Notes under the pieces: generated by a model
Told to the model about the DNA's origin: nothing
Seen by the model: the letters and a program-made list of their open reading frames with translations, nothing else
Databases searched by the model: none
In this document: piece after piece, positions 3,542 to 10,482 of the stretch
Layout of the letters: every line of letters begins with the position of its first letter
Position numbering within the stretch: the stretch's first letter is position 1
Translations under genes and position numbers: made by a program
NCBI RefSeq assembly: GCF_002973595.1
Contig: NZ_PVEO01000006.1
Span: 124,001-188,000 of the forward strand
DNA length: 64,000 nucleotides
Source of the DNA: Jejuia pallidilutea
GTDB taxonomy: Bacteria; Bacteroidota; Bacteroidia; Flavobacteriales; Flavobacteriaceae
Direction: 5' to 3'

Positions 3542-4213
3542 TTAAAACAGCTTTTTTTTAACTGTTTCGTAATAACTATCGCTAACAGGAATTTGTACAT
3601 TTGTAACCCATAAGTCTCTGCCTTTTAATGCGGTAACTTTATCTTTGTTTATAATGTAAGAACGATGTACTCTTAAAAATAAAGAAGGAGGTAATTTTTT
3701 TTCGAGCGACTTTAAGGTTTGGTGGCTCATAATTTTTTTCTCCTTGGTGTAAAAAACTACATATTCGTTATCGCTTTCTACATAAAGAATATCGGTGTAC
3801 TTTAGTTTGTGTAAATCGTAACCCGATTTTACTGTAATGGCATTTTCAACAACAGTATCTTCTTTTTTAAATTTGTTTACCGCTTGTAAAAAACGTTCAA
3901 AAGTAATAGGTTTTAGCAGGTAATCTAGCGCGTTTAAATCGTATCCTTCTAAAGCGTATTCAGAATACGCTGTTGTGAAAATAACCTTTGTTTTCGAGTC
4001 TATTAATTTAGCAAAATCGGTACCTTTTAACTCGGGCATTTGTATATCTAGAAAAATAATATCTATATCATTTTCTTTTAAAATTGGTACTGCGCTCAAA
4101 GGGTTTTCAAAATCGTCTATAACTTCTAAAAAATCTATTTTATCGATATAAGATTTAAGGAGTGTTCTTGCTAACTCCTCATCATCAATTACAATGCATT
4201 TTACTTTGTTCAT
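3542..4213 (-). CDS. LytTR-family response regulator
   Basis: A 223-residue regulator with an N-terminal receiver domain (about 1-120) and a C-terminal LytTR DNA-binding domain (about 125-223). The acidic pocket is at IDDEE, the phosphoacceptor is D56 (FLDIQMP), and the conserved Lys is in LLKPI. The LytTR part shows the usual VESDNEYVVFYT and FLRVHRSYIIN motifs. LytTR domains bind pairs of about 9-bp direct repeats roughly two helical turns apart. The start overlaps the stop of the kinase gene by 4 bp, so translation is coupled. Its likely targets are the three repeated elements at 5341, 5841 and 8598. Confidence 0.95.
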   Translation of the reverse strand: MNKVKCIVIDDEELARTLLKSYIDKIDFLEVIDDFENPLSAVPILKENDIDIIFLDIQMPELKGTDFAKLIDSKTKVIFTTAYSEYALEGYDLNALDYLLKPITFERFLQAVNKFKKEDTVVENAITVKSGYDLHKLKYTDILYVESDNEYVVFYTKEKKIMSHQTLKSLEKKLPPSLFLRVHRSYIINKDKVTALKGRDLWVTNVQIPVSDSYYETVKKKLF

Positions 4214-5244
4214 ACTAAATTTAAATGGAGCGTTACTTTAAATGTTGTTTCATTATTATTTACTTCTAATTGATGCTTTTCTGGATACAAGATAGACAAT
4301 CTTTTCTTTACATTTTCAAGTCCAATGCCGCCAACTTTATCTTTGGTAATTACTTTTTTCGGTTTACTATTTTCAACTTCAAAATCGAGTGTTTTTTCAT
4401 CTGTATTGATCTTAATGTTTATAAAGGCATTGTTAATATCATCAATATTACTGTGTTTTAAAGCGTTTTCTATAAATGGTATAAGCAACATAGGTGCAAT
4501 GGTCGCAGAATTATTTGTAATGTTATAGTTAGAAGAAATGGGGTAGGTTTTACTACTTTTTAAAGCAAACAGTTTTAGGTAATTTTCTATATATTCAATC
4601 TCTTTTTTTAGTGGTACGGTTTCTTGGTCGCATTCATACAAAACATAGCGTAACATATCTGATAAATGAATAATACTTTTTTGTGTTTTACCAGAATCTA
4701 TCCCCGCCAGGGTGTATATATTGTTTAAGGAGTTAAATAGAAAATGTGGATTTATTTGCGATTTTAAAAGCTTTAATTCATTCTGTAAATTAATGTTTTG
4801 AGCCTTAATGGTTTCTTTTTCTTTTTGTTTTAAATAATTATAAACCTCTACAGACAAAGCCAAAACATAGGTAATAGCCAAAATTAAAGTATGCAATAAA
4901 TAATGCGTTGGCGGTTTTTTCATTTCTGGTCGCGGTGGTGGCCCCATTTCGGGTCTTCCTATAGGTTGAGCCTCCTCAAGTGGCATATGAAAAAGTAGAG
5001 ATAGAATCCATACTGAAATACCAATTAACACCATTGAAAAAACTGCAAAGTGCACATGTTTTTTTTTAAACAATAAATTAGGCGCCGCATAATAAATAAG
5101 CACACTAAGAAGCATAATTTGAAACAATAGCACAACAAAATTCTCATGTAGTATCTCGATATTGGCATCTTGGTTTAACCAAATAATTGTACCAATAAAA
5201 AGCCAAAGCGCAGCTTGAATAGTAAGTCTTGTAATTCTTTTCAT
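4210..5244 (-). CDS. LytS/YehU-type sensor histidine kinase
   Basis: Integral-membrane histidine kinase of the His_kinase (LytS/YpdA) family. Four to five transmembrane segments occupy the N-terminal half, with a Pro/Met-rich loop (RPEMGPPPRPEMKKPP) between two of them. The phosphoacceptor His lies in INPHFLFNSLNN and the ATP-binding domain carries LIPFIENALKH and GGIGLENVKKRL. The ATG at 5244 is preferred; a GTG-started form could begin at 5280. It is transcribed divergently from the EF-hand gene at 5435 and overlaps its response regulator by 4 bp. The Pro/Met-rich loop might be a sensor segment, for instance for a metal, but this is speculation. Confidence 0.93.
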   Translation of the reverse strand: MKRITRLTIQAALWLFIGTIIWLNQDANIEILHENFVVLLFQIMLLSVLIYYAAPNLLFKKKHVHFAVFSMVLIGISVWILSLLFHMPLEEAQPIGRPEMGPPPRPEMKKPPTHYLLHTLILAITYVLALSVEVYNYLKQKEKETIKAQNINLQNELKLLKSQINPHFLFNSLNNIYTLAGIDSGKTQKSIIHLSDMLRYVLYECDQETVPLKKEIEYIENYLKLFALKSSKTYPISSNYNITNNSATIAPMLLIPFIENALKHSNIDDINNAFINIKINTDEKTLDFEVENSKPKKVITKDKVGGIGLENVKKRLSILYPEKHQLEVNNNETTFKVTLHLNLV

Positions 5245-5340
5245 GCTGCAAAGTAAAGCAAAAATAAATCTATCAATCACTTATAAACTGGCAAAATACT
5301 ACTGTAAACATGGTGTTTATGGCATAGAAATAAAGTTTTA

Positions 5341-5402
5341 CTGAAAAGTTTTAGCGTTTCACAGAAAACCTAACTTTTAACACCATCTATATCTCATCTT
5401 TG
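5341..5402 (+). promoter_or_regulatory. Repeated regulatory element, copy 1, with -7 box
   Basis: Half-site CTGAAAA (5341-5347) is followed after 14 bp by CAGAAAA (5362-5368), a 21-bp period. The sequence TTCACAGAA is shared exactly with the copies at 5841 and 8598. A -7-like box CATCTTTG (5395-5402) begins 33 bp after the second half-site, and the EF-hand ATG is 73 bp after it. The geometry matches a LytTR-type direct repeat placed over the -33 region of an activated promoter. Confidence 0.7.
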
Positions 5403-5434
5403 TATCAAAATAATACCCTTTAAATAGATTTAAA

Positions 5435-5719
5435 ATGAAACCAAAATCAATACTAGTTGTAGTTATCGCCAGTACATTATTTACATTCACAGCCAATGCA
5501 CAACAGTCTAGAGACCAAGATCAACGTAAAGAACCACCATCGGTAGATGAAATTTTTGAACACATGGATGAAAACGAAGATGGAAAACTTTCTAAGGAAG
5601 AAGTAAAAGGACCATTAAAGGAGATGTTTACCAAAATAGATACTAATGAAGATGGATATTTATCTAAGAAAGAAGTAGAAGAAGCGCCAAAACCTGAAGG
5701 TAGAAGACCAAGGCAATAA
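5435..5719 (+). CDS. Secreted EF-hand protein
   Basis: A 94-residue exported protein. The signal peptide ends at ANA|QQ (about residue 22). Two canonical EF-hand calcium loops follow, D45-E56 (DENEDGKLSKEE) and D69-E80 (DTNEDGYLSKKE), each with Asp at positions 1 and 5, Gly at 6 and Glu at 12. The tail is Pro/Arg-rich. It is a paralogue of the EF-hand lipoprotein at 8692, which shares the MDENxDGKLS and EVKGPL core. It has its own copy of the repeated regulatory element upstream and a terminator downstream, so it is a monocistronic unit of the same regulon. Confidence 0.9.
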   Translation: MKPKSILVVVIASTLFTFTANAQQSRDQDQRKEPPSVDEIFEHMDENEDGKLSKEEVKGPLKEMFTKIDTNEDGYLSKKEVEEAPKPEGRRPRQ

Positions 5720-5769
5720 AAACATATAAACTTAGTTTTTTTTCATCAAATTTTGATGGATTAATAGCG

Positions 5770-5805
5770 AAAGGCTTCGTGAGAAATTGCGAAGCTTTTT
5801 TAGTT
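5770..5805 (+). terminator. Rho-independent terminator after EF-hand gene
   Basis: AAAGGCTTCG and CGAAGCTTTTT form a stem around a 10-base loop, followed by a T-run. It lies 50 bp after the EF-hand stop codon. Confidence 0.8.
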
Positions 5806-5840
5806 TATAAATTTAAATTCTACCTAAAAATACCCATACA

Positions 5841-5902
5841 CTTAAAAGTTGCTCCCATTCACAGAATACTCTCATTTGACATATTATTTTAATCGAATTT
5901 TA
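5841..5902 (+). promoter_or_regulatory. Repeated regulatory element, copy 2, with weak -7 box
   Basis: Half-sites CTTAAAA (5841-5847) and CAGAATA (5862-5868) have the same 21-bp period as copy 1 and the shared TTCACAGAA. At the equivalent position, 33 bp on, lies GAATTTTA (5895-5902), a weak -7 box. The ferredoxin ATG is 68 bp after the second half-site. It would drive the ferredoxin, haem protein and flavoprotein genes. Confidence 0.65.
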
Positions 5903-5929
5903 TACTCTAAACGCTTAATATCTAACAAA

Positions 5930-6145
5930 ATGCCAATAAAAAGTATAAATGGTTGTATCGGTTGCGAAGAGTGCATAAAAAGTTGTCCAACTGATGTTTT
6001 AAGGTTAAATCCCGATTCTAAAAAAGCAGAAATTTTATATCCAGAAGACTGCCAAATTTGTCATTTATGCAGAATGTATTGTCCTGTTGATGCTATAGTA
6101 ATAACACCCGATAAATCTATTCCTGTAATCGTGTCTTGGGGTTAA
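5930..6145 (+). CDS. Two-cluster [4Fe-4S] ferredoxin subunit
   Basis: A 71-residue protein with two cysteine motifs, CIGCEECIKSCP near the N-terminus and CQICHLCRMYCP after it, each ligating one [4Fe-4S] cluster. The ATG at 5930 is chosen because the longer frame from 5849 would begin inside the upstream regulatory element. It lacks a signal peptide. Its gene is followed by the haem protein and the Tat flavoprotein, an arrangement like the AprB/AprA and fumarate-reductase iron-sulfur/flavoprotein pairs. It probably passes electrons between the membrane haem protein and the flavoprotein. If so, it must travel with the flavoprotein through Tat or work from the cytoplasm; the sequence does not decide. 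Confidence 0.9.
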   Translation: MPIKSINGCIGCEECIKSCPTDVLRLNPDSKKAEILYPEDCQICHLCRMYCPVDAIVITPDKSIPVIVSWG

Positions 6146-6159
6146 TAAAACAGAGGTTT

Positions 6160-6801
6160 ATGAAAACACAAAACTACATAATAAAATTATCGGTGCTTAT
6201 CTTCTCATTTTTAATAGTGCCCTTGTTATTGTATTTCACTGGAAATTTTCAAAGACGATCCACTTTAATGGAAACCTTATCTATAACAACAATTCTAGGG
6301 TTTTCATTATTACTATCTCAATTTTTTACTTCAAGATTAAATATAGGATTGGTAAAAAAAATAAGAATGGTAAATGTACTCGCTATTCATAGGTTTATAG
6401 GCTACTTTTTTATCGCTGTAATACTATTACATCCATTTTTCATTATTGTTCCAAAGTTTTTCGATAATGGTGTATCGCCAAGTGATGCCTTTGTAAAATT
6501 AATTACAACATTTAGTACTACGGGCATTATCCTAGGCATAATAGGGTATACTCTTATGTTACTTCTGATGGTAACGGCTTATTTCAGGTTTAAAATGCAT
6601 CTAAACTATAAAACATGGAGGCGTTTACATGGGTATTCAGCCTTACTTTTTGTAATAGCAGCTACGTGGCATGTTATCGATATGGGCCGACATAGCAACA
6701 CGTTATTTTCAACGTATTATGTGTTAATGGTGGTAATTGGTGTGTTTTATTTATTAAAAACCTATGTAACTAATACAGGTAAACATGAAAACAAAACATA
6801 G
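6160..6801 (+). CDS. Ferric-reductase-like haem-b transmembrane protein
   Basis: A 213-residue integral membrane protein with five to six helices. Paired histidines sit in two helices: AIHRFIG and LLHPFF in one, LHGYSALLF and TWHVID in the other. This is the bis-haem b signature of the ferric-reductase-like (YedZ/MsrQ/NOX) superfamily. The ATG at 6160 is preferred, after the ferredoxin stop at 6145; an earlier start at 6136 would overlap the ferredoxin by 10 bp. The 3' end overlaps the flavoprotein gene by 17 bp. The likely role is moving electrons from the quinone pool or a cytoplasmic donor across the membrane to the exported flavoprotein. Confidence 0.85.
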   Translation: MKTQNYIIKLSVLIFSFLIVPLLLYFTGNFQRRSTLMETLSITTILGFSLLLSQFFTSRLNIGLVKKIRMVNVLAIHRFIGYFFIAVILLHPFFIIVPKFFDNGVSPSDAFVKLITTFSTTGIILGIIGYTLMLLLMVTAYFRFKMHLNYKTWRRLHGYSALLFVIAATWHVIDMGRHSNTLFSTYYVLMVVIGVFYLLKTYVTNTGKHENKT

Positions 6802-8593
6802 AAAAATCTCAAGAAGAAAATTTATAACCTTAACAGGAGGAGCAGCTGGTTTTGCTGCCATGGGAGGATTTGCAATGCAAGTAGATTGGGCTTTAAACAA
6901 TCCTGAAATTAATGCAGAAACTCTTGAAAACAATAGAATTACTACTGATGTTTTAGTGGTAGGCAGCGGTATGGCAGGTTTGTTTGCTGCTGTAAAGGCT
7001 CATGATGCTGGGGCTCAAGTTTTAATGGTTTCAAAAGGACGTTTAGGTTCTTCGGGGCAAACACCATTTGCCAAAGGTATTTTTGCTTATGATAAAGATA
7101 ACGAAGCGTTAAGTATTGATGAATTTGTGGCGAAAGTATCGCGTTCTGCTCTTGGTACAAATAACAAGGCGTATACCAGACAATTGGCAGAACATTCCTT
7201 AGCAAGAGTTAACGAATTGAGGGAATGGGGCTTTTTTGAATCTTCATTATATAATAAAAGTTTTAGCAAACCTATAGAAGAACGCAATATTCCTGTTCAC
7301 GAACGTGTTACGATTACGCATTTAGTAAAAGAAGATGATAGGATAATAGGTGTTGCTGGTTTTAGTATAGACGAACAAAAGGTGTTGTTTTATGAAGCTA
7401 AAAGTGTGATTTTATGTACCGGAGCAGGAGGTTTTAAACCCAACGGATTCCCCATTTGCGATTTAACTCACGACGGTACTGTAATGGCGTATAATATTGG
7501 TGCAAAAGTTACTGGTAAAGAATGGAATGATGGTCATCCTGCAAAATCAGAAAATCCCGCAGCGTGTTATGATGGTTGGGGCGATATGTTTGAACAAAAA
7601 CCAAGTACAACACGCATTGAAATTCGTCACGATTTAGGTGTAGACATGAATTATATGGCGTATATAAATGGTGGTGCAGCACAAATGGGACCTCCGGGGA
7701 GAGGCAATCAAAGTAATGGAGTTTCTGGAGGACCCTATAGACCTGAAGAGTTTACGAGTCAAGGAGGTCCTGGTGGTCATTCACAAGATGGAGAAGAAAT
7801 ACAAGGACCGCCTCCTGGTGATAGTGATAGAAAACGTCCCCTTAGAAAAGAAGGAAAAGTTGCACCACCAGGAATGGGAGGTAGTGTAGTGGGAGGATCT
7901 ACGGCTGGAATGTCTATACACAAAGCAGAAGGTTTAGTACCTATAAATGATAAATGTGAATCTACAATTCCAGGCTTATATGCTGCTGGAGATGCTTTAG
8001 GCTCGTATATGGCTGGCGGAATTTATACGCAAATTGGTTCGTCGTTATCAGGATCGGCGGTACAAGGTGCTATTGCTGGAGAAACTGCTGCCAATTATAG
8101 TAAAACTGTAAAAAGCAAAAATATCTCTACTAAAAAACTAAAAAGTATTGAAGAAGACATTTTAGCGCCCTTAAAACGAGAGGCTGGTTACAGTCCTGCA
8201 TGGGTAACCCAAACGTTACAGAGTATTATGATACCCAACTTTGTATTGTACATAAAAAAGGAAAATTTAATGAAAGCTGCCTTGGCATATGTAGAAGAAC
8301 TTCGCGATCATCATGTACCTCATTTAAGGGCATCTAATTTACACGAATTGCGTTTAGCTCATGAAACGAAAAACATGGTAATAAGTGCCGAAATGAAGTT
8401 ACGAGCCTCCTTAATGCGAACCGAAAGTAGATGTAGTCACTTCAGATTAGATTACCCTGAAGTGGATAACGAAAACTGGCAAGCGTGGATTAACATTTTT
8501 AAGGGCGAAGACGGAAGCATGACATTAGAAAAACAACCTTTTAACACGTGGGCATCTACGACTAAAAGTAGCGAAATTGAAGCTAATAGCTAG
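6785..8593 (+). CDS. Tat-exported FAD-dependent oxidoreductase (fumarate reductase/AprA-like)
   Basis: A 602-residue flavoprotein. Twin-arginine signal SRRKFI is at residues 9-14, followed by a hydrophobic stretch. The FAD dinucleotide motif VVGSGMAG is at 58-65, the second FAD motif GLYAAGD at 397-403, and an SdhA/AprA-like helical C-terminal region carries HELRLAHETKN and RTESRC (545-550), where relatives usually have RTESRG. A Gly/Pro-rich, probably disordered insertion occupies about residues 301-365 just before the second FAD motif. The family reduces fumarate-like, urocanate-like or adenylyl-sulfate substrates; this one's substrate is not evident. It is the last gene of the ferredoxin-haem-flavoprotein operon. 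Confidence 0.88.
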   Translation: MKTKHRKISRRKFITLTGGAAGFAAMGGFAMQVDWALNNPEINAETLENNRITTDVLVVGSGMAGLFAAVKAHDAGAQVLMVSKGRLGSSGQTPFAKGIFAYDKDNEALSIDEFVAKVSRSALGTNNKAYTRQLAEHSLARVNELREWGFFESSLYNKSFSKPIEERNIPVHERVTITHLVKEDDRIIGVAGFSIDEQKVLFYEAKSVILCTGAGGFKPNGFPICDLTHDGTVMAYNIGAKVTGKEWNDGHPAKSENPAACYDGWGDMFEQKPSTTRIEIRHDLGVDMNYMAYINGGAAQMGPPGRGNQSNGVSGGPYRPEEFTSQGGPGGHSQDGEEIQGPPPGDSDRKRPLRKEGKVAPPGMGGSVVGGSTAGMSIHKAEGLVPINDKCESTIPGLYAAGDALGSYMAGGIYTQIGSSLSGSAVQGAIAGETAANYSKTVKSKNISTKKLKSIEEDILAPLKREAGYSPAWVTQTLQSIMIPNFVLYIKKENLMKAALAYVEELRDHHVPHLRASNLHELRLAHETKNMVISAEMKLRASLMRTESRCSHFRLDYPEVDNENWQAWINIFKGEDGSMTLEKQPFNTWASTTKSSEIEANS

Positions 8594-8597
8594 TTAA

Positions 8598-8659
8598 CTG
8601 AAAACTTAAGCCCATTCACAGAAAACCAAAATTTGGTGTAGTTCTATTACAGATATTTG
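8598..8659 (+). promoter_or_regulatory. Repeated regulatory element, copy 3, with -7 box
   Basis: Half-sites CTGAAAA (8598-8604) and CAGAAAA (8619-8625) repeat the 21-bp period with the shared TTCACAGAA. The box GATATTTG (8652-8659) begins exactly 33 bp after the second half-site, as in copy 1. The EF-hand lipoprotein ATG is 73 bp after the second half-site, again the same as copy 1. It begins 5 bp after the flavoprotein stop. Confidence 0.7.
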
Positions 8660-8691: not shown

Positions 8692-9006
8692 ATGATATCG
8701 AATACAATAAAAATAGCAATCACAGTAGTATCTATAGCGGTCTTTGTTTCATGTAAATCTTCTGAAACAGAAAATAAAAATGCGAATACACAAAGAGGTC
8801 AGGGTGAGCGTCCTTCTGTAGCGCAATTAATTACAGAAATGGATGAAAATAAGGATGGAAAGTTATCAGAATCTGAAGTAAAAGGACCTTTGCAAAACGA
8901 TTTTTATAAAATAGACACAAACGATGATGGTTTTCTTTCAAAAGAAGAACTAGAAAATGCACCTGAACCAGAACGAAAAGGCAGACCTCAAGGTGGCGCT
9001 AGATAA
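8692..9006 (+). CDS. EF-hand lipoprotein
   Basis: A 104-residue lipoprotein. The signal peptide ends in the lipobox VFVSC (C21). Two EF-hand loops follow, D51-E62 (DENKDGKLSESE) and D75-E86 (DTNDDGFLSKEE), both with complete calcium-ligand spacing. The C-terminus is rich in Pro, Arg and Gly. It resembles the soluble EF-hand protein at 5435 and probably arose by duplication, with secretion modes that differ (lipid anchor here). It is 30 bp upstream of the CotH gene and shares its promoter, suggesting that calcium binding and the CotH protein act together outside the cell membrane. Confidence 0.9.
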   Translation: MISNTIKIAITVVSIAVFVSCKSSETENKNANTQRGQGERPSVAQLITEMDENKDGKLSESEVKGPLQNDFYKIDTNDDGFLSKEELENAPEPERKGRPQGGAR

Positions 9007-9036
9007 TAACTTTATAAATAATTTAAACGAATTGAG

Positions 9037-10482
9037 ATGAAACAAATATTCAAACTTAAAGCAACAACATTAGTTTTAGCTATGTTTTTTATACTGTCGG
9101 TTTTTAATGCCTGCAATAGCGACGACACAAACGATGTAATTATCGAGGAAGAAGAAAAGGAAGAAGAAGTAGTTATTGACGATACAGATTTTGAAGCAAC
9201 AGATTGGACTACCGAAACTCACAGTAAGGATACAGACCCCAACTACGAAGAAGTTTTTGAAGATGAAGCCGTAAAACGAATTGATATAGTTATAACTGAA
9301 AACCGTTGGCAAACCATGTTGGATGATATGACGGCAACTTACGGAACGTTTGGGTCTGGCTCTGGAGGTCCCGGTGGTGGTTTAACCGAAACTGATGAAG
9401 ATCCGGTTTTTGTGCCTGCAGAAGTGTTTTATAATGGTATAGAGTGGTACAGAGTTGGTGTTAGGTTTAAAGGAAATTCAAGTTTACAATCTACATGGCA
9501 AAGTGGCAATTTAAAACTATCGTTTAAGTTAGATTTTGACGAGTTTGAAGACGATTACCCACAAATAGACAATCAGCGTTTTTACGGATTTAAAAAGCTT
9601 CACCTTAAAAACAATTATAATGATGAGTCTATGTTAAGGGAAAAAGTGGCTGGCGATGTATTTAGAAATGCTGGTTTAGCAGCTTCACGTACGGCATTTT
9701 ACACAGTGTATGTTGATTATGGAAATGGTCCTACTTATTTTGGAGTTTACACTATGGTTGAAGATGTAGAAGATACGCTTTTAGATGATTATTTTGGAGA
9801 CAACGATGGTAACCTTTATAAGCCCGATGGTGATGCGGCAAGTTTTGCCTATGGTACTTTTGATGAAGATGAATATGTTAAAAAAACCAATGAAGATGAT
9901 GCTGATTTTACTGATGTTGAAAATCTTTTAACTATTTTACATGATACCTCAAGGACAACAGACCCTGAAACATGGAGAGCAAACCTTGAAGCTGTTTTTG
10001 ATACAGATGTATTCCTTAAATATTTAGCAACCAACACGGTGATTCAAAATTGGGATACCTACGGTAGAATGACGCATAATTATTACCTGTACAATAATCC
10101 AAATACGAATAAATTAACGTGGATTCCTTGGGATAATAATGAAGCTTTACAAACAGGAAACATGGGCGGTTCATTACCTTTAGATTTTTCAGGATTAAGT
10201 AGTAATAGCTGGCCTCTAATAGGGTATTTGTATGCCGATGATGTTTATAAAGCACAATATGATGGCTATGTTCAAGACATAGCAAACGATGCTTTTAGCG
10301 TGGGTAATATTCAAACACAATATGCTGCATATTCTGCCTTAATAGAGCCGTATGCAACAACTGAAAAGAGTGGTTATACATTTTTAGAAAGTAGTTCAGA
10401 TTTCCTTAATGCAGTTAATATACTTAACTCGCATGTTACGCAAAGGGCAACAGCAGTGAGTAATTATTTAAATAATAATTAA
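9037..10482 (+). CDS. CotH-kinase-family lipoprotein
   Basis: A 481-residue lipoprotein with lipobox FNAC (C26) and an acidic linker after it. The body matches the CotH family, secreted atypical protein kinases first known from Bacillus spore coats. Recognisable blocks are RFKGNSSLQS, KLHLKNNYNDESMLREK, YFGVYTMVEDVED, YKPDGD, NTVIQNWDTYGRMTHNYYLY and WIPWDNNEAL. It contains a short Gly-rich loop (GSGSGGPGGG). CotH proteins phosphorylate secreted proteins; the natural target here could be the neighbouring EF-hand proteins, but that is inference from operon position. It ends the operon and is followed by a strong terminator. Confidence 0.92.
   Translation: MKQIFKLKATTLVLAMFFILSVFNACNSDDTNDVIIEEEEKEEEVVIDDTDFEATDWTTETHSKDTDPNYEEVFEDEAVKRIDIVITENRWQTMLDDMTATYGTFGSGSGGPGGGLTETDEDPVFVPAEVFYNGIEWYRVGVRFKGNSSLQSTWQSGNLKLSFKLDFDEFEDDYPQIDNQRFYGFKKLHLKNNYNDESMLREKVAGDVFRNAGLAASRTAFYTVYVDYGNGPTYFGVYTMVEDVEDTLLDDYFGDNDGNLYKPDGDAASFAYGTFDEDEYVKKTNEDDADFTDVENLLTILHDTSRTTDPETWRANLEAVFDTDVFLKYLATNTVIQNWDTYGRMTHNYYLYNNPNTNKLTWIPWDNNEALQTGNMGGSLPLDFSGLSSNSWPLIGYLYADDVYKAQYDGYVQDIANDAFSVGNIQTQYAAYSALIEPYATTEKSGYTFLESSSDFLNAVNILNSHVTQRATAVSNYLNNN

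Follow-up and report, generated by a model that had tools for sequence, protein, structure and literature searches.

Three direct-repeat elements as candidate operators of a LytTR response regulator in Jejuia pallidilutea

We analyzed a 64,000-nucleotide stretch of the Jejuia pallidilutea genome (NZ_PVEO01000006.1, positions 124,001 to 188,000 of the forward strand; hereafter the window), in which three short direct-repeat elements precede three transcription units, beside genes for a LytTR response regulator and a membrane histidine kinase. These elements are very likely the operators of the neighboring regulator (3542..4213, minus strand), the protein proposed to bind all three, and would activate the three units together: an EF-hand gene, a ferredoxin operon (5930-8593), and an EF-hand/CotH operon (8692-10482). 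The elements and their promoter boxes are listed here, with E-values from the search model R2 described below:

5337..5366, plus strand: candidate operator 1, half-sites 5337-5345 and 5358-5366 (R2 match, E 1.8e-5)
5837..5866, plus strand: candidate operator 2, half-sites 5837-5845 and 5858-5866 (R2 match, E 3.3e-9)
8594..8623, plus strand: candidate operator 3, half-sites 8594-8602 and 8615-8623 (R2 match, E 5.3e-10)
5395..5402, plus strand: -7 box of promoter 1, CATCTTTG
5895..5902, plus strand: weak -7 box of promoter 2, GAATTTTA
8652..8659, plus strand: -7 box of promoter 3, GATATTTG
5875..5878, plus strand: -33-like TTTG of promoter 2, 8 bp past the second half-site
8632..8635, plus strand: -33-like TTTG of promoter 3, 8 bp past the second half-site

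A preliminary description of this DNA had noticed the pattern CTKAAAA-N14-CAGAAWA before the three units. Indeed, the pattern has exactly three matches in the window (5341, 5841, and 8598, all on the plus strand), against a mean of 0.01 expected by chance (100 dinucleotide shuffles), and a repeat search returned the same three sites as one family (D1, 41 nt), with 63% and 76% identity to copy 1. The finer details of that description were reproduced. All three copies hold the identical core TTCACAGAA; in each copy, an 8-bp -7 box begins 33 bp downstream from the first base of CAGAAWA, the box of copy 2 being weak, with TTTA instead of TTTG; and the ATG codons (5435, 5930, and 8692) lie 73, 68, and 73 bp after that same base. 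A better notation for the half-sites is a pair of 9-mers with a 21-bp period, namely TTTACTGAA/TTCACAGAA, TACACTTAA/TTCACAGAA, and TTAACTGAA/TTCACAGAA. Counted from the first base of the element, the TTTG (copies 1 and 3) or TTTA (copy 2) of the -7 box lies at 62 bp; copy 1, unlike copies 2 and 3, has no TTTG at offset 38, 8 bp past the second half-site. LytTR operators are recognized by two direct repeats of ∼9 bp, 21-22 bp apart from center to center, and by a position a short distance upstream of a -35/-33 element, and both features are present here. The flavobacterial sigma-A box is given as TAnnTTTG at -12 to -5 in the excerpt consulted of PMC9723704, and the half-sites therefore lie near -66 and -45. 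Operator 1 is located in the intergenic region shared by the kinase and EF-hand genes and points at the EF-hand gene.

The three sites also stand out in the genome as a whole. The exact pattern has four matches in 4,110,363 bases, three of them the window sites. The fourth (C4:77405, in locus L001) was set aside: it is outside any frame of at least 80 amino acids in its 3-kb locus, has no TTTG at the register, and is not among the matches of our two models at E≤10. Allowing one mismatch proved too loose (54 places versus 30 for the reversed control), and sequence-only models, whose E-values are rough, were used instead. The first, R1, was built from an ungapped alignment of 33 promoters (73 columns). 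It found the three window sites with E-values of 3e-12, 6e-11, and 8e-8, and nothing else below 0.09. The second, R2, built from 28 sites with none from the window or from locus L058, gave 5e-10, 3e-9, and 2e-5, with the next match at 0.18. The genome-wide search that the preliminary description had called for thus ended as it predicted, with only the three window sites prominent. Three copies within 3.3 kb make a local duplication conceivable, and the repeats might then be a dispersed repeat, the remnant of an insertion or a chance similarity, with no regulatory role. Such an origin is already contradicted and strikes us as extremely improbable: the 41-nt copies are only 63-76% identical, their likeness resides mainly in the half-sites, other genera have this element ahead of the same gene families and in the same register, and just the three sites stand out in the R2 search.

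The element was recovered by motif discovery in the regions 220 bp upstream of EF-hand, ferredoxin, and CotH homologs (104 regions, after excluding CotH matches below 38% identity, EF-hand matches below 45 bits, and regions shorter than 150 bp). In the 45 regions whose locus has a LytTR gene, a lag of 21 topped the self-matches of at least eight in nine bases (nine regions; other lags from 14 to 32 gave 0 to 5). The best motif from unsupervised expectation maximization (EM), run with no prior, was aTTcaTaGA.AAaaT....c.aTTCgTTGATT, a 21-bp direct repeat. Its scores were bimodal: 35 of the 104 regions exceeded 13 bits (three of these being the second copy of one genome, as L108 is that of L037), the next scored -2.4, and all three window sites were among the 35. 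We then applied a 34-bp position weight matrix (PWM), built from 14 sites including three from the window, to 17 previously unused regulator loci. In 15 of them the top match precedes an EF-hand, YHYH, or CotH gene, counting the CotH gene of L152 through a 28% match at the locus end. The regulator loci (328,816 bp) contained 31 matches of at least 17 bits, overlaps included, and 18 other CotH loci (355,617 bp) contained a single one, in genome G018.

The register to the promoter is rigid. Among 49 PWM matches above 15 bits in loci of the window's regulator clade (clade A), TTTG lies at offset 62 in 23 and at offset 83 in 11; the latter equals 62 + 21 and corresponds to offset 62 counted from the following half-site in a triple. 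Over 36 promoters, TTTG was found at 62 in 27, a tally biased by choosing the promoter-proximal pair in triples (the 23 + 11 of 49 being unselected), and 13 also have TTTG at 38 or 39, in the -33 region. Several EF-hand promoters elsewhere (L137-L152) have three half-sites 21 bp apart; the window's sites have two. The register also bears on the sense of control, since the repeats lie upstream of the -33 and -7 elements at a fixed distance, neither over nor behind them, which is the layout of activated LytTR promoters. That the regulator instead represses the three units, with the element shutting the promoter until a signal arrives, has a precedent in AgrA, described in the portion of PMC4227749 consulted as repressing bsaA from a site downstream from the promoter; given the layout, we consider this unlikely. 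Activation from upstream by a phosphorylated dimer is our best reading. The membrane kinase would sense a signal and phosphorylate the receiver; the regulator would bind both 9-bp half-sites side by side, two turns apart on one helix face. From there, immediately ahead of a promoter whose -33 element is poor and whose -7 box contains TTTG, it would recruit the sigma-A RNA polymerase. Three units would then be switched on: the EF-hand protein, the chain of ferredoxin, membrane cytochrome, and flavoprotein with a twin-arginine translocation (Tat) leader, and the EF-hand lipoprotein with the CotH kinase.

Across the family, the site and the regulator go together. Of 299 family genomes, 21 (the window's among them) encode a close relative of the regulator (E≤1e-60; 49-75% identity) and 28 encode CotH (E≤1e-60); nine have both. 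A site was found at the CotH locus in all nine CotH genomes with the regulator and in none of the 19 without (Fisher P 1.4e-7, relatedness ignored). It lies directly before EF-hand or CotH genes in eight of the nine; in G018 it precedes a gene with a VTC domain (polyphosphate polymerase-like; L112:6967), 2.2 kb ahead of CotH. In the 19 other genomes, where a stretch of roughly 20 kb was read, no clade-A site was present: scores did not exceed 11.7 in 17 of them and were 10.1 and 12.9 in the two with the second type of site described below. Regulators of 36% identity near the CotH genes of L104 and L106 were discarded as candidates; they group with the regulator beside an ABC exporter in L031, and a much closer relative is encoded elsewhere in those genomes. 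Only seven of the 21 inner branches in the regulator tree have good support, and long branches come together in it; we relied solely on the window's five-row clade.

R1 gave a consistent picture on 40 other genomes. It matched below 1e-3 in 18 of 20 genomes with the regulator (the exceptions being G198 and G259) and in none of 20 without it (best 0.0022), these controls comprising 10 genus mates (of 11) and 10 genomes (of 12) with the sigma-factor arrangement described below. Most of these matches fall in loci already read. Eight (up to E 3.3e-4) are in regions not previously looked at, and each of them is followed by an open frame at a distance of 54-217 bp. By type, these frames are EF-hand (three), Cthe_2159-like (two), YHYH, CotH, and PAP2/haloperoxidase-like (one each); Pfam confirmed the YHYH and one Cthe_2159 frame, and the others were named by eye. 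A ninth such match (3.6e-4) is inside a coding frame. Other response regulators are plentiful, candidate matches running to tens in each genome, and the half-sites of different LytTR proteins look alike (as far as the consulted part of PMC6193735 goes), so that some other LytTR regulator might bind the three sites and the neighbor be a bystander. The distribution makes this quite improbable: among CotH genomes the site type occurs only with close relatives of the neighboring regulator, including five in which the regulator is not adjacent, and ten of the 11 genus mates, which have no such regulator, show no R1 match below E 0.003. In four of these five genomes the regulator is on another contig (G001, G129, G212, and G018) and in the fifth it is ∼19 kb away (G014); in all except G018, the site was seen before the regulator was found. 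For the claim that the neighboring regulator controls the three units, geometry, uniqueness, and co-occurrence thus give support, whereas control itself is something we infer. As for the proposal of a self-contained regulon, the three units do share the site, but the site is not peculiar to this locus, since elsewhere it also precedes YHYH, MORN/SCO1, VTC, and Cthe_2159 genes.

A second LytTR/kinase pair is found beside the ferredoxin operon (the redox cassette) and CotH genes elsewhere, with a regulator 38-43% identical to that of the window (clade B). Its half-sites, TTCATAGAT and TTCGTTGAT, differ from the clade-A TTCACTGAA, with spacing and register unchanged. Of 20 regions that have a motif and fall outside the window's clade (second LytTR clade plus unassigned loci), 18 show TTTG or TTTA at offset 62, as do eight of nine further sites in L035, L039, L042, and L046. 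The L046 site has no box at the register; the motif of L052, likewise with no box there, is doubtful. The operator type follows the regulator clade with few exceptions: the better-scoring PWM agrees with the clade in the nine clade-A training loci, in 15 of 16 held-out loci, and without exception in clade B (13 loci, two from the same genome; L039, L042, and L046 held out). These three held-out clade-B loci have no motif directly before the ferredoxin or CotH gene, their sites being elsewhere in them. Between the two groups of regulators (21 versus 12 sequences), near-fixed differences are found at positions 131 (G/E), 133 (D/K), 136 (K/R), 148-149 (DS/MR), and 197-199 (KGR/ERN). In an alignment with AgrA, residues 148-149 are next to AgrA H169, which we take to be a base contact. 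In L140:6701-11743 (genome G104), a clade-A pair adjoins a second LytTR/kinase pair, with a regulator 42% identical, and a clade-B site at L035:14734 precedes a protein resembling, by eye, a VTC-domain protein.

Several observations weigh against control by the neighboring regulator. In the window, the -7 box of copy 2 is weak, and neither R1 nor R2 finds a site directed towards the kinase, or one clearly aimed at the kinase-regulator operon. The 28 sites of R2 were chosen by a PWM with three of its 14 sites from the window. In the 59 regions with no nearby LytTR gene, lag 21 also leads, if barely (11 versus 10 at lag 15); L101 and L102, among these loci, belong to genomes that encode the regulator elsewhere. 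The best PWM match in L139 has no clear target, and L153, with the most distant regulator (45-49% identity), has no clade-A match above 12 and has a clade-B-like site. L146, of clade A, scores higher for type B. The G018 site has TCTG, not TTTG, at the register, and is distant from CotH, as noted. Finally, L031 has neither type of site, though its cassette, with a flavoprotein 82% identical to the window's, is directly behind a LytTR gene of ∼40% identity.

A third arrangement accompanies the same genes. Twelve CotH genomes with no LytTR sites, as well as L032, have a sigma factor and two companion genes upstream on the same strand (L090, L091, L093-L100, L111, L116, and L032), the sigma factors being 70-80% identical to that of L032. 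The sigma domains were identified by Pfam for L032, whose companion genes have no Pfam match. A CACAAGT-N14-18-CATCTAA-like motif is present in 13 of 73 loci scanned, exactly those with the sigma operon; it was derived by visual inspection of the very loci that were afterwards counted, and a second spelling was included to accommodate L093. These operons are of the extracytoplasmic function (ECF) sigma/anti-sigma kind. They are found beside the same EF-hand/CotH module, but a sigma factor and an ECF-like promoter motif replace the LytTR pair and its operator. The 28 CotH genomes accordingly divide into nine with the clade-A site, two with the clade-B site, 12 with the ECF arrangement, and five with none recognized.

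The genes of the locus, with their Pfam matches, are the following:

3542..4213, minus strand: LytTR response regulator, receiver and LytTR DNA-binding domain (Response_reg E 1.8e-21, LytTR E 3.4e-22)
4210..5244, minus strand: membrane sensor histidine kinase, His_kinase (LytS-type) family (His_kinase E 5.7e-25), its start taken as the ATG at 5244
5435..5719, plus strand: EF-hand protein with a signal-like leader (EF-hand_1 E 1.6e-12; two DxNxDG loops by eye)
5930..6145, plus strand: small ferredoxin with two 4Fe-4S motifs (Fer4 E 2.6e-10, two stretches)
6160..6801, plus strand: ferric-reductase-like membrane protein (Ferric_reduct E 3.3e-12)
6785..8593, plus strand: flavoprotein of the fumarate reductase/AprA superfamily with a Tat-like SRRKF leader (FAD_binding_2 E 1.8e-20, Succ_DH_flav_C E 1.1e-13)
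8692..9006, plus strand: EF-hand protein with a lipoprotein-like leader (EF-hand_5 E 5e-10)
9037..10482, plus strand: CotH-family kinase with a lipoprotein-like leader (CotH E 2.5e-70)

These domain matches bear out the LytS/LytTR pair named in the preliminary description. A regulator with receiver and LytTR domains and an adjacent LytS-type sensor of the His_kinase family are both present, as expected of a LytTR two-component system, and the kinase gene is divergent from the EF-hand gene (5435). The two proteins probably act as a pair. A kinase homolog adjoins the regulator in all 21 clade-A loci read, and also in L153. No regulator was detected at E≤1e-60 in the 11 other genomes of the genus searched, and the locus is therefore accessory. 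Elsewhere in the window, a short tandem AACTTCT run (2338-2375) lies between aldehyde dehydrogenase-like and short-chain dehydrogenase-like genes (named by eye).

The redox cassette is rare in the family, the flavoprotein being found at E≤1e-100 in two of the 299 sampled genomes, the window's included. Relatives at 60-84% identity are present in 28 loci, among them contigs of Bacteroidales, Vibrio, Amphritea, a spirochaete, and Krumholzibacteriia; several of the loci are metagenome bins. This spread over several phyla suggests wide transfer of the cassette. Among 20 aligned flavoproteins, R11 of the twin arginines is invariant and R10 is present in at least 90%, and comparison of the loci (L031-L057) suggests a mobile periplasmic electron chain. 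Its flavoprotein is similar to subunits of fumarate reductase and of adenosine 5′-phosphosulfate (APS) reductase. We do not claim it as a fumarate reductase, as it is below the curated cut-off of each of the 25 NCBIfam models listed, out of 66; a predicted structure with a mean predicted local distance difference test (pLDDT) score of 54 was not used. In Flavivirga jejuensis, whose locus is the nearest named relative of the window's (L058:5661-6120), regulator, kinase, and the operators at the ferredoxin and CotH places are kept, but part of the redox cassette is deleted internally and the EF-hand and CotH genes have largely disappeared. The EF-hand loops and the CotH kinase point to secreted proteins in calcium- or phosphate-linked processes; a joint function of the targets in phosphate and calcium, or metal, handling at the envelope would be a guess.

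The mechanism proposed here is textbook LytTR, a switch of a known kind. What is new is the regulon (EF-hand, CotH, YHYH, VTC, Cthe_2159, SCO1, and the Tat flavoprotein chain), the regulator swaps, and the comparison of two clades. Our search of the open-access literature returned no operator for a flavobacterial LytTR/kinase pair, nor this regulon, which does not prove their absence in print. On balance, we favor the view that one extracytoplasmic module circulates in Bacteroidota under three interchangeable regulators, namely either of two LytTR clades or an ECF sigma factor; its members would be EF-hand, CotH, YHYH, VTC polyphosphate polymerase-like, and Cthe_2159 proteins and, here, a redox chain mobile across phyla. 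If so, the two clades are a natural experiment from which rules of LytTR recognition can be read, and their differing half-sites at the same geometry make the recognition code directly testable. The site is recognizable in sequence data, false positives being few (here, no other R1 match below E 0.09), and it offers a ready regulon for poorly understood secreted proteins (CotH, YHYH, EF-hand, and Tat flavoprotein).

Among characterized systems, the closest geometry is that of Streptococcus mutans. In the part of PMC6193735 consulted, its LytTR operators are 9-bp direct repeats, mostly with a 12-bp gap, 4-11 bp upstream of the -35 element, for example ACCACTTAT-12-ACCGCTTAT with an 8-bp spacer, in agreement with the direct repeats ∼21 bp apart that the preliminary description had mentioned for these regulators. 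The HdrR/BrsR operators described there share with ours the 9-bp repeats, the 12-bp gap, and the 8 bp to the -35 element (in copies 2 and 3, to a -33-like TTTG), and their half-sites ACCACTTAA and ACCACTTAT resemble TTCACTTAA of the window's clade. They differ in that HdrR/BrsR have a membrane inhibitor as partner and autoregulating sites, as opposed to the histidine kinase found here, and in that, in the window, the -7 box is of the Bacteroidota kind and the targeted genes encode EF-hand, CotH, and redox proteins. By the definition in the same excerpt, a LytTR regulatory system (LRS) has a membrane inhibitor as partner in place of a kinase and is autoregulated via direct repeats ahead of its own operon; the partner here is a His_kinase-family protein. 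The Bacteroides operons of its Table 3 (B. thetaiotaomicron and B. ovatus) likewise have repeats just upstream of a promoter with a TATCTTTG -7 box. However, these are 11-bp repeats with an 11-bp gap (22-bp period) and the half-site TCCGGTATTCA, and the regulators have membrane segments and are paired with another membrane protein. AgrA-type regulators (structure 3bs1; PMC4227749, in the portion consulted) are alike in the receiver and LytTR domains, the FhRhHRS motif, and direct repeats upstream of promoters. Their regulon is different and their sequence distant: a profile of the LytTR part of the window's regulator and nine relatives matches the DNA-binding domain of AgrA in 3bs1 with an E-value of 1e-6.

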